From assembly GCA_943787745.1 (NCBI GenBank), contig CALSNJ010000001.1, positions 310,001-374,000 of the forward strand: a stretch of DNA of 64,000 bases, in the 5' to 3' direction. Below the pieces are notes generated by a model. The model was not told where the DNA came from. It worked only from the letters and a program-made list of their open reading frames with translations, and did no database searches. Below are positions 3,895-56,920 of the stretch, one piece after another. Positions within the stretch are counted from its first letter, which is position 1, and every line of letters starts with the position of its first letter. The position numbers were made by a program, and so were the translations under genes. Source of the DNA: an uncultured Alphaproteobacteria bacterium. GTDB lineage: Bacteria > Pseudomonadota > Alphaproteobacteria > UBA6615.

Positions 3895-5817
3895 TTAGGC
3901 TTCGGGCCCCGCGCCGAAAACATCCTCGAGAGATTTCACCTGATGGCGGATATTGCCGTCACGTTGTGAGAGTTTGACCCGGTCAAAATACTCAAGAACC
4001 TCGACGGCGAGATTTCGCCCGATACCGGCCGACTTGCGAAAATCTGAAACGCCGACAGTGCCGTCTGTTTCGATCATCTTGACGAAGACTTTGGCATGGG
4101 CGCGCAGGGCGACGGGTGTGAAGAAACGGTTCCCTGCGATTTGAACCGCCATCCCCATGCGGACGGCCTGGCGCATGGTTTTCATGACCGCGCCGACCGT
4201 TAAACCGGTCTCGGCAGCGAGATCATGCACAACGGGCGGGGCTTCGGGTGTTTCTTCCAGCATTGGCAGCAACAGCGCCCAGTGCTTGGCGTCGTCGCCG
4301 GTCAGGCCCGGCTGATGATTGGGCCGGTGTAGCAACATGCCGTCGCTGGCCACAGTGCAGTCGGATACCGAGGCTGTGACAAGCGCGTCGAAAAGTGGCT
4401 CGGGCACAAACCGGCCAAGGCTGCGACGAAGCTGCGAGGCTGCCGGGCCAAGGCGATCGGGATTGTTTGTGTGAAATGCGTCGAGCGCTTTGAGAAACTC
4501 TGCGCGGCGGGCTTCCCATGCGGCAGGCGACAGCGCCAGCCGGTCCGCATTGTCTCCGGCAATGATCGCCCCCGCATCTGCCAACAAAGCAGCGGCTTCT
4601 TTGTCGTTCAGGTTGCGGGTGGCGAGGAACGCATTCAGGGGGAAACCGGTGTCCGACAGGGCCAGCGTTTTGGTGAGTGCGGATGTATGGTCCGGCGTAT
4701 CAAGAGCGTTCAGCACGGCGAGCCGGTCGGCCCGCGCGCGGCCACGGCGTGGTGGGAAAAGGTCAATCACATGACCGCCGCCCAGAGTGACTTGCGCTGA
4801 CTGATCGCGGATTACAAATCGGTCATGGGCGCAGGCCCCTACCGCTTCGTCGAGGACCAGTTGCGCGAGCGCGGATTGACCAGGTTCAATATTTTCGGCG
4901 CCGAGAACAGCAACCCGACCTGGGACGTTCTTGGCGCCAAGATGCACATGCACAGGGGTCCAGTGCCGCAGCGGACGGCGCGCATCAGCAACAACCCGCA
5001 AGCGCACATCAAGTTTCTTGTAGAGTTGCAGGCTTGGGTCGGCCACCAGCCAGTCGCCGCGGGCGATATCGTCTTTATCGATGCCCGCGAGATTGATGGC
5101 AAGTCGATCGCCGGCGCGCCCGGTCTGGCTGTCGGCGTTGTTCGCGTGGATGCCGCGGACGCGGGCCTGGGTGTCAAAACCGGCGATCCAAAGTCGGTCT
5201 TCACGTGCGACCTGCCCGGAGAAGGCGGTGCCGGTTACGACAAGTCCGGCACCAGCGACCGTGAAGACGCGATCAACACCGAGACGGAAATGTCCACCTT
5301 CGGCCTTGTTGTGAACCTCTTCGGAAAGCGCCGTGATCTTGGCAGATAGTTCATCGATACCCGTATTGGTGATGGCGGAGACCGGAAAAATCGGAGCGTC
5401 GGCCAATGAGCTGTCGGCGAGCAATTCAGAGATTTCGTTCTGAACTTCCTGCACGCGCTCTGCGGGCACCCGGTCGATCTTCGTGAGCGCGACGAGCCCG
5501 CGTGAAACACCCAGAATATCCAGGATGGCGAGATGCTCGCGCGTCTGGGGCATGGGGCCGTCATCGGCGGCGACCACGAGCAAAGCACAATCAATTCCCG
5601 TGACGCCGGCCAGCATGTTGTGGACCAGACGTTCATGGCCAGGCACATCGATGAAGCCGAGCCGGGCACCATTGGCGAGATCGGTATAGGCAAAGCCGAG
5701 GTCAAGCGTCATGCCACGCTTTTTCTCTTCCGGCAGGCGGTCAGCATCCGTTCCGGTCAGCGCCTTCACCAGAAGGGTCTTGCCGTGATCAATATGTCCT
5801 GCGGTGGCGATAATCAT
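3895..5817 (-). CDS. selB: Selenocysteine-specific elongation factor SelB
   Basis: A 640-residue SelB, the usual length. The G domain begins with AGHIDHGKT (residues 6-14), followed by DVPGHE and TKID; domains II and III follow, and the C-terminal third is the winged-helix region that binds the SECIS hairpin. In the known pathway SelB-GTP delivers selenocysteyl-tRNA to UGA codons beside a SECIS element. The start overlaps the selA stop by 4 bases (ATGA), so the two are translationally coupled. A candidate target gene with in-frame UGA lies at 14205. No selC or selD is seen in the window. Confidence 0.97.
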
Positions 5818-7247
5818 CGACTGGCCAGTATTTTCAGTTGTGCGCGGAAGCCGTCCATATCATCCAGGCAGCGCAGGTCGAGCCACAATGCATCATCCTG
5901 CACGCGGCCAATGATCGGCAGCGGCAGTCCGCGAAGGTCTGCGGCAAGCCGTTTGAGGGCTGCGCCGCGGCCGCGCGATGCGGTGGGCATGATGGTGATG
6001 GCTGCGCTGTCGAGGGTTTCCACCGGCAGTGCTCCCGAGCCGATCTGGCCCGAACATTCGGCGATCCCGACGTCGAAGCCGTCTCCCAGTGCGGTTTTGA
6101 CGTCATCCAGAACGGCCTCGGCCTGGGAGCGAATGTCTGCGGCTTTACGCGCCAGGCGACCCAATGTCGGCAACCGTTCGGTCAGCCGGTCGGGATCTCG
6201 GTACAACTGCAACGTGGCGGCGAGCGCTGCGAGGGTCGCCTTGTCGCATCGCAATGCGCGTTTGAGCGGGTTCTTTTTGAGTTTCGCGATCAAGTCTTTG
6301 CGGCCGACAATCAACCCGGCTTGTGGGCCGCCGAGAAGCTTGTCGCCGGAGAAGGTGATGATATCTGCACCCGCCGCGATCGTTTCGCGCGGCGTGGGTT
6401 CGTGGGGCAGGCCCCATGTCTCAAGGTCAACCAGTGCGCCTGCGCCCAGGTCTACCGCGAAGGGTACATCTCCGGCATGGGCGATACCGGCAAGCACGTC
6501 TTCTGCAACGCTCGCGGTGAAACCCTGCACCATATAGTTCGAGGTGTGGACCTTCATGATCAAGCCGGTGCGCGGATTGAGAACTTCCTCGAAATCCTTT
6601 GCATGGGTCCGGTTGGTGGTGCCGACTTCGACAAGCTTTGCGCCCGCGCGTGACATGATGTCAGGGATGCGAAACGCCCCGCCGATCTCCACAAGCTCAC
6701 CGCGTGAGACTGGGACTTCCTTGCGCAGGGCCAGTGCGTTGAGCAGCAACAGGACAGCGCCGGCATTGTTGTTCACCACCGTGGCGGCTTCCGCGCCGGT
6801 CAGCTCGCAAAGCAACTCTTCGACATGTACGTCCCGATCTCCACGTTTTCCCGTCGCCAGATCGAACTCGAGATTGCTGGCGCCCCGCGCGGCATCAGCC
6901 ATGGCTGTGATCGCTTCTTCAGCGAGGGGTGCGCGCCCGAGATTGGTGTGGAGCACCGTGCCGGTCAGGTTGAACACGCGTTTGAGAGACGGAGCGGCCA
7001 TCCGTTCAAGCCGGGTTGCTGCGCTTTGGGCAATGGCGCCTTCGCGCAGATCGGTCTCCTTGCCCTCTGTAAGTGCGGCCCGCGCAATGCCGAGCAGGTT
7101 GCGCAGCACGGTTGTGGTCGCCTCACGGCCATGGGATTCCACAAGCGTTACGACCTCGGGGGCCTGCAAAAGGCGATCGAGTGACGGGATGGATGCGAAA
7201 TCAGGTGTGGTGTTTGCCATGGGCGGGGATTGTTGAGCGGCAGGCAT
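5814..7247 (-). CDS. selA: L-seryl-tRNA(Sec) selenium transferase SelA
   Basis: A 477-residue PLP enzyme that converts seryl-tRNA(Sec) to selenocysteyl-tRNA(Sec) with selenophosphate. The PLP lysine is K303 in [13 protein letters not shown]. The N-terminal domain contains [16 protein letters not shown], typical of SelA. Length and motifs are complete, so the gene looks functional. It is cotranscribed with selB (4-base overlap). The start at 7247 is nearly back to back with the divergent hydrolase gene; an internal ATG at 7220 is an alternative. Confidence 0.97.
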
Positions 7248-13836: not shown

Positions 13837-14166
13837 ATGTCGCAGGATAATTTTGTCGTATTTGATGACAGCAATTTCGATGCACAGGTCCTCTCGCGTG
13901 ATGACCTGACCGTTGTGGATTTTTGGTCGACCACCTGCGTGCCCTGCAAACAGTTGAAAAAGGTTCTTGGACAAGTCGCCGAAGACATGCCCGAGAACGT
14001 CATGATCGGCACTGTCAACGGCGATGAAAATCAGGATCTTCTGGTGCGCTATGGCGTGCGCGGTTTTCCGACGCTCCTGTTTATCAAGGGCGGGGAAGTG
14101 GTGGAAACACGCACCGGCGTCGACCGCAAACAGGTGCTTAAGAAAGTGATCGAAGAACACGCCTGA
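13837..14166 (+). CDS. Thioredoxin-family protein
   Basis: A 109-residue single thioredoxin domain. The redox pair is C34-V-P-C37 in FWSTTCVPCKQL, instead of the common CGPC, and the cis-proline is in RGFPTLLFIKGG. It has no signal peptide, so it is cytoplasmic. The ATG at 13837 follows a GGGAGAAA site; the frame to 13765 is longer but has no ribosome site. It is first in an operon with an AhpD-like selenoprotein candidate 38 bases downstream, and so is a likely electron donor to the C-x-x-U centre. Confidence 0.93.
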   Translation: MSQDNFVVFDDSNFDAQVLSRDDLTVVDFWSTTCVPCKQLKKVLGQVAEDMPENVMIGTVNGDENQDLLVRYGVRGFPTLLFIKGGEVVETRTGVDRKQVLKKVIEEHA

Positions 14167-14204: not shown

Positions 14205-14825
14205 ATGGCCAATATCACTCTGCTCGATATCGAAGAGCTGAAGAAGACCAAGCTCAAACCCTATGTTGAGAAATCGCTTGAATTGCGGGCGCCCGATCCT
14301 GGTTTTCATGCCGTCATGGGTCACAACATCGACATTGCCGAGAAATTTTATCTGGCTTGGGTGGGGGCGTTCAACGAGGGCGCGCTCAGCCATCGGCTGA
14401 AAGAGGTGATCCGGGTGATGCTCTCCCGGATGGCCCATTGCAGCTATTGAGGCAATGTTCGGTCTGCTTCGGCGAAGCAGCAAGGACTTGACGAACAGGC
14501 ACTCGACGACGGGATTTACAATCATGCCGCCAGCGACGTCTTTACCGATGAGGAAAAGGCGATCATGCGGTACGTGGAAACAATCGCGACCGATCCGGAT
14601 TCCTTCGATGATGCGGCGTGGGCAGATTTGCGTGCCCATCTCTCGGAAGAAGAGATCGTGGAACTGGGAATGTTCCTGTTTATGAATCTCGGCTTCCACA
14701 CCTTCTTTGGAACCCTGAAATTCTATCCGATGTTTGCGCCCGATGGGCGTCTGGTCAGTCAGGAAGAATCTGAACGCCTCTATGGGGATCGCCCGGAATC
14801 CCTGCAAAGCGCGGCGGCTGAATAA
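14205..14825 (+). CDS. AhpD-like carboxymuconolactone-decarboxylase-family selenoprotein (UGA read as selenocysteine)
   Basis: A 206-residue protein if TGA at 14448-14450 is read as selenocysteine (residue 82). The frame stays open on both sides: 81 codons before and 124 after, ending at TAA 14825. The site reads H-C79-S-Y-U82-G-N-V-R, which places U at the second cysteine of the AhpD C-x-x-C redox pair. A hairpin begins 13 bases after the TGA (14464-14480). selA and selB lie 7 kb upstream. The next gene, a paralogue, aligns across the TGA codon without a gap. AhpD-like proteins are peroxidase-cycle reductases, so a thiol/selenol peroxidase or disulphide reductase role is likely. Ordinary gene calling would give an 81-residue fragment and a separate 86-residue ORF. 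A simple nonsense mutation is less likely given selAB and the hairpin. Confidence 0.88.
14448..14450 (+). other. In-frame UGA, proposed selenocysteine codon
   Basis: TGA in frame with the AhpD-like gene at the position of the resolving or attacking cysteine in C-x-x-C. The following codons GGC AAT GTT continue a conserved helix shared with the neighbouring paralogue. Confidence 0.87.
14456..14497 (+). promoter_or_regulatory. Bacterial SECIS-like element
   Basis: A perfect 7-base-pair stem CTGCTTC/GAAGCAG (14464-14470 with 14474-14480) closes a three-base loop GGC. The loop begins 20 bases after the UGA, inside the range reported for bacterial SECIS elements (about 16-37), and has a G in its first positions as SelB binding requires. 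A second helix TGTTCG/CGAACA (14456-14461 with 14492-14497) could extend it. It lies inside the coding region, as bacterial SECIS elements do. Confidence 0.8.
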
Positions 14826-15361
14826 TGTCGCGTATGCAGCCGCTTGATCTCTCGGAGATCAAAGACCCCGAGATCCATGAGCTGATCACCGAGTGCGAGG
14901 AGTTTGGCGTGCCGGATGCGATGTTCATCCGCATATTTGCCCGCCAACCCGATCAGATGAAAAGCATGCTTCGGGCGATGCTGTCCTCCCATCGTGACGG
15001 GAGCGTCGATCACAAGCTCAAGGAAATCATTCGTATCCAACTCGCGCGGTTTGCCGAGGACCCCTATTTTGCAGCACTTCGCTCGAAAAAGGCCATTGCC
15101 GAAGGTCTCACCGAAGATGTGATTGAGGCGGGGTGCGAGGACTACGAGGATTCGGACCTGTTCTCAGATCGGGAGAAGGTTGCCTTGCGCTTTGCCGAGC
15201 AGATGTTCCTCGACTCTACCAAGGTCGACAAGATTTTTTATGATGAGATGCACGTGCATTATTCCGATCCGGAGATCATGGAGATCGGCGCGTTTATCGC
15301 GCTGTTCCACGGTATCCACATGGTGATGCGCACTTTCGACGCCCGTCCCGCGGCGGCTTAG
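14825..15361 (+). CDS. Carboxymuconolactone-decarboxylase-family paralogue lacking the redox pair
   Basis: A 178-residue alpha-helical protein of the same family as the preceding selenoprotein; SHRLKEVIRVMLSRMA upstream matches DHKLKEIIRIQLARFA here. At the active site A-H-C-S-Y-U is replaced by A-E-D-P-Y-F, so both redox residues are lost. The start overlaps the previous stop by one base (TAATG), so the pair is coupled and may form a hetero-oligomer, since AhpD proteins are oligomeric. It may be a structural or regulatory partner; that is inference. Confidence 0.85.
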   Translation: MSRMQPLDLSEIKDPEIHELITECEEFGVPDAMFIRIFARQPDQMKSMLRAMLSSHRDGSVDHKLKEIIRIQLARFAEDPYFAALRSKKAIAEGLTEDVIEAGCEDYEDSDLFSDREKVALRFAEQMFLDSTKVDKIFYDEMHVHYSDPEIMEIGAFIALFHGIHMVMRTFDARPAAA

Positions 15362-56817: not shown

Positions 56818-56920
56818 CCCGGGCCGAGAGGTCGGGGCTCCGCCAGTCCGCGAGTTTCGCGCACTGGCGCGTTTGTCGTTGGGCACTTCTCTGTTGGAGC
56901 GCCCGGAAGGATTGGATGGC

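Follow-up and report, generated by a model that had tools for sequence, protein, structure and literature searches.

A predicted AhpD-like selenoprotein with an adjacent Cys-less sister in an uncultured alphaproteobacterium

AhpD-like selenoproteins with a CxxU motif were described from the Sargasso Sea, the motif having been known since 2005 (PMC1088965), and they are among the commonest marine selenoproteins (PMC2398784, PMC9402790; reviewed in PMC13188914). One published set, AhpD-like 1 (COG2128/YciW, TIGR01926), comprises proteins of marine bacteria that are likewise of the CMD/AhpD type and carry Sec as the second residue of CxxC (PMC1088965, PMC2398784, PMC13188914). The initial annotation of the window (the whole 64,000-nucleotide stretch of DNA analysed here) had noted, in agreement with this literature (PMC1088965, PMC2398784), that such selenoproteins are known from marine metagenomes, and had proposed a further one in the following gene.

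14205..14825, + strand: predicted AhpD-like (CMD-fold) selenoprotein gene, 206 aa, Sec at residue 82 (evidence: frame, PF02627, orthologues, alignment)
14448..14450, + strand: in-frame TGA, predicted Sec codon, C79-S-Y-U82 (TGA in all orthologues, no Cys)

AhpD-like 1 has 902 Cys homologues in GOS, whereas no Cys form was found for the window's subfamily, which is paired with a Cys-less sister; the published AhpD-like 1 set may already contain this subfamily as a subgroup. The best NCBIfam match of the Sec protein was TIGR01926, at 49.5 bits against a cut-off of 81.8. NF053654, a YciW-related (seleno)protein family of the same fold, matched both the Sec protein (39.1 bits) and the sister (50 bits), far short of its cut-off of 310. 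Because the gene falls below every curated NCBIfam cut-off that it matched, an automatic annotation is likely to break it in two at the TGA. Mycobacterium tuberculosis AhpD and Pseudomonas aeruginosa PA0269 share with the window's protein the fold, a Glu and the CxxC motif, and PA0269 also the Tyr within it; unlike both, the window's protein has Sec for the second Cys and Arg for the relay His (PMC3141380). As judged from its sequences, the subfamily is distinguished by predicted Sec without exception, by the replacement of the relay His with Arg and by the adjacent Cys-less sister.

The reading frame and its in-frame TGA

An 81-codon frame up to a TGA at 14448, continuing in the same frame to a TAA ending at 14825, had been reported initially, and these coordinates were confirmed. 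Translation would start at ATG 14205, which has a Shine-Dalgarno-like AAGAAGGA upstream; 81 sense codons are followed by the TGA at 14448-14450, the sole interruption of a frame that then stays open to TAA 14823-14825. Read-through yields a product of 206 aa with H-C-S-Y-U at residues 78-82 (...RVMLSRMAHCSYUGNVRSASAK...). With the TGA set as Cys, it matched the Pfam CMD family PF02627 at 31.1 bits (cut-off 23) over residues 54-125, a span that includes the TGA, in line with the proposal that both flanks form one carboxymuconolactone-decarboxylase-family protein. The reported gapless alignment to the next gene was likewise recovered (178 residues, 28.7% identity). A plasmid search returned distant CMD proteins only.

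An orthologue was present in 18 of 95 related genomes, and the best match in each contained exactly one stop, a TGA. Codon 82 was also TGA in all 24 loci (54-98% identity) drawn from 84,980 species genomes, the loci belonging to marine and other alphaproteobacteria and to Burkholderiales and other betaproteobacteria, with the frame behind the codon open wherever the contig continued; the 18-genome and 24-locus sets overlap. Neither Cys, another residue nor a terminal stop occurred at codon 82 in the 18 genomes or the 24 loci, although the scan pattern used for the latter specified Cys instead of Sec around the site and so would, if anything, have favoured Cys forms. Class and phylum samples (385 and 398 genomes) yielded no Cys form of the subfamily either. 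Homologues with a true stop, or without Cys or Sec at this site, had been named at the outset as evidence against a selenoprotein; every orthologue instead had TGA as codon 82, with the frame running on behind it.

The protein is conserved on either side of the TGA up to the C-terminus. Residues 83-91 (GNVRSASAK) were invariant in a 22-row alignment, as was much of the C-terminal NxGxHTxFG...F-P-M-x-PDG region. Cys at the site aligned to Sec82 was found only in more distant relatives (L067 and L039), with none inside the subfamily; the TGA lies at the second Cys of the AhpD C-x-x-C pair, as initially stated. The nearest Cys relative in the tree is of the L067 type (G011:C7:38027-38473; C-E-F-C-G-N-Q-R-S, pattern C-x-x-C-G-N-x-R-S), which is 33-36% identical to the window's protein and has Cys for Sec.

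A sequencing or assembly error of a TGC or TGT Cys codon has in its favour that the formate dehydrogenase gene of the same assembly is frame-broken, so that errors may exist; the same TGA, however, appears in independent assemblies from many projects, which makes this explanation vanishingly improbable. Chance stop-to-stop continuation, a pseudogene and a sequencing error were ruled out by conservation across independent assemblies.

In one genome (L050:5001-6902, G006) the locus is locally duplicated as Sec gene, partner and second Sec gene with TGA; the C-terminal part of the second Sec gene is nearly identical to that of the first, suggesting recent duplication or gene conversion. A further AhpD-like selenoprotein candidate is L038 (G050:C7:31620-32063), a distinct CMD protein whose motif is C-N-L-U; it is 30% identical, comes from a genome with selA and has a similar hairpin behind its TGA.

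The hairpin behind the TGA and the selenocysteine machinery

14464..14480, + strand: bacterial SECIS-like hairpin CUGCUUC-GGC-GAAGCAG, 7-bp stem, apical GGC at 14471-14473 (pairing 98.8%, synonymous freeze)

Numbered from the U of the UGA, the hairpin occupies +17 to +33; it begins 13 nt behind the UGA, with its loop 21-23 nt after it. A bacterial SECIS is expected to be a hairpin just downstream of the UGA whose small apical loop contains G, the loop here being GGC. Synonymous codon identity was calculated for 16 representatives below 90% identity in 8-codon windows and compared with 200 within-sequence codon shuffles. Constraint peaked at codons 86-93, where identity was 0.79 versus about 0.34 expected (shuffle mean 0.33); values in the 200 shuffles stayed at or below 0.40 for this window and at or below 0.62 for every window. 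Codons 88-91 (GCT TCG GCG AAG) were fixed save for one Ala-to-Thr change at codon 88, and it is these codons that make up the hairpin stem, so that the synonymous freeze and the hairpin coincide. Across the alignment 98.8% of stem cells were paired. Pair 18/32 occurred as C-G, U-A or U-G, a compensatory exchange in which a synonymous Ser codon change (TCC/TCT) is joined to a Gln/Arg codon change; covariation is modest because five of the seven stem pairs never vary. A weaker and more variable lower helix (14453-14460 with 14484-14490, 81% paired) may extend the hairpin. The isolated 61-nt hairpin was no more stable than shuffled sequences (z = 0.05), so the case for a SECIS rests on conservation and not on energy; on that footing the hairpin is a predicted coding-region bacterial SECIS.

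These results bear on whether the TGA is a true stop, leaving a pseudogene or two separately translated fragments. A literal TGA does end the frame, and ATG 14565 could begin an 86-aa ORF. Against this stand the retention of the TGA, and of an intact frame behind it, by every orthologue down to 54% identity, the synonymous freeze and hairpin directly behind the TGA, and the linkage of the gene to selA described below; termination at this codon is thus very unlikely. Since the TGA is kept in every orthologue found and both protein and RNA hairpin are conserved behind it, it is not a chance stop.

5814..7247, - strand: selA, L-seryl-tRNA(Sec) selenium transferase (TIGR00474, 582 bits)
3895..5817, - strand: selB, Sec-specific elongation factor (TIGR00475, 459 bits)

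The selA and selB genes, which overlap as a pair, are those that had been reported near the Sec gene. The initial annotation had also regarded absence of selC and selD as evidence against its reading, and both were present, completing a genomic set of selA, selB, selC and selD. The selC gene (C1:303811-303902, 71 bits) was called by ARAGORN as tRNA-SeC with anticodon TCA, and selD (295 bits) is fused behind a pyridine-nucleotide-disulphide oxidoreductase (NADH-dehydrogenase-type) domain; selC and this Ndh-SelD fusion are located 6-8 kb ahead of the window. The fusion itself (L080:11497-13842, - strand; G000:C1, about 301.5-303.8 kb) is of a known marine type. Among the 95 relatives, selA was found in 18 of 18 genomes with the AhpD-like Sec gene versus 12 of 77 without it (one-sided Fisher P = 8e-12, a statistic that ignores shared ancestry). 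Three Burkholderiales loci (L049, L056 and L063) likewise have selA and selB nearby, about 1 kb beyond the Sec gene and sister pair.

A second predicted selenoprotein of the genome is SelW-like, with C-K-I-U and an in-frame TGA (L079, G000:C1:264318-264518; Rdx, 47 bits). Formate dehydrogenase was considered as a further selenoprotein and rejected on account of Cys at its active site; its alpha gene (L081, G000:C5:262500-266500) is spread over two or more frames, reflecting either assembly frameshifts or a decaying gene. Elsewhere in the window, an Rfam ffh sRNA match was recorded at 56828-56877 (+ strand; 37.4 bits, gathering score 35).

Decoding of the TGA as Trp, or by a near-cognate tRNA through a code change or suppression, is as improbable as termination, and nothing was found in its favour. 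The TGA coincides exactly with the redox Cys position, the genome encodes a complete Sec system, a SECIS-like hairpin follows the codon, and both TGA-bearing genes found in the genome have the TGA second in a CxxC-type motif. The "probable selenoprotein" of the initial annotation is therefore strongly supported at the sequence level, and we put the probability that the gene encodes a selenoprotein with a CxxU redox site (Cys79-x-x-Sec82) at about 0.93.

Fold, sister gene and likely chemistry

The AlphaFold2 model of the Sec protein is all-helical with a mean pLDDT of 80; the active-site region is the least confident part of its core (pLDDT about 57, residues 81-90). Foldseek matched the model to the debrominase Bmp8 (best), PA0269, 2PFX, 2OYO, D. 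radiodurans AhpD and 6K40, and a PDB profile search gave the same set, led by Bmp8 (E = 8e-12) and 2GMY. Together with the PF02627 match, this AhpD-like fold places the protein in the AhpD-like/CMD family.

The AhpD proton relay consists of Glu118, Cys130, His132, Cys133 and His137; in PA0269 a Tyr takes the place of His132 (PMC3141380). Glu67, Cys79, Tyr81 and Sec82 of the window's protein fit the first four positions in the alignment, and the fifth is occupied by an invariant Arg86, so that the strict five-residue relay of an AhpD peroxidase is incomplete. The label "AhpD-like" accordingly held for fold and motif and not for the fifth relay His, which weakens the peroxidase reading. Judged from sequence and model, the Sec protein is predicted to work as an AhpD-type CxxC oxidoreductase, AhpD being a fold-and-motif assignment and the peroxidase role putative; peroxide or disulphide chemistry is somewhat favoured.

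Alternatively, the same selenoprotein could reduce a specific small molecule, as a reductive dehalogenase or other reductase, in the manner of Bmp8 (PDB 6OHI, 6OHJ). Bmp8, whose CxxC is in the same position, is its best match by both PDB profile and fold; the selenoprotein does not conserve the fifth AhpD relay residue, and neighbouring genes of cupin, MFS, dioxygenase, amidohydrolase and xanthine-dehydrogenase type point to catabolism. However, Bmp8 has Cys only and is just about 20% identical, the neighbouring genes differ between lineages, and adjacency to thioredoxin would equally fit a general thiol oxidoreductase. We consider such a non-peroxidase role possible but the less probable of the two.

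14825..15361, + strand: Cys-less sister paralogue, C79 to D and U82 to F (adjacent in every locus reaching far enough; tree; AhpD/CMD fold)
13837..14166, + strand: thioredoxin, a plausible reductant (Pfam Thioredoxin, 4e-24)

A sister adjoins the Sec gene in all loci that extend far enough. Its redox positions are Asp and Phe, with Ser instead of Phe in some lineages, while Glu67, Arg86 and Ser87 are retained, and its model has a confident AhpD/CMD fold (pLDDT 91). In the tree the sisters group as a single clade next to the Sec proteins. Support is weak (81/21) for the fork that unites the two without the Cys relative L067, whose placement is unsure because of its long branch. Tentatively, the sister may be a partner subunit with a structural or substrate-binding role. 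Within the window's family the sister's ATG shares bases with the stop codon of the Sec gene (TAATG), and since that stop would be reached only by read-through, translation of the sister may depend on Sec decoding. A speculative extension is an obligate two-gene unit, in which Sec enzyme and Cys-less sister would form a hetero-oligomer and TAATG would couple sister synthesis to Sec decoding; if true, selenium supply would gate the whole complex. The thioredoxin gene is adjacent upstream of the Sec gene in most, though not all, loci; the genes flanking the Sec gene in several of the more distant lineages are cupin and MFS genes instead.

In the mechanism that we propose for the CxxU oxidoreductase, SelB and Sec-tRNA would decode the TGA as Sec under the direction of the hairpin that follows 13 nt later, giving a single 206-residue, all-helical redox protein of the AhpD/CMD fold whose active site is Cys79-x-x-Sec82. 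With Glu67 and Tyr81 activating it, the Sec selenolate may then attack an oxidised substrate (a peroxide, a disulphide or another reducible small molecule), Cys79 would resolve the selenenyl intermediate as a selenenyl-sulphide, and the thioredoxin encoded just upstream could reduce the latter.

The predicted gene would thus add to the AhpD-like selenoproteins a strictly Sec-only, clearly delimited subfamily that occurs in alpha- and betaproteobacteria and is accompanied by a neighbouring sister pseudo-enzyme. Because Sec appears strictly kept and no Cys form was found within the subfamily, it would be well suited to testing which functions of Sec are beyond the reach of Cys.
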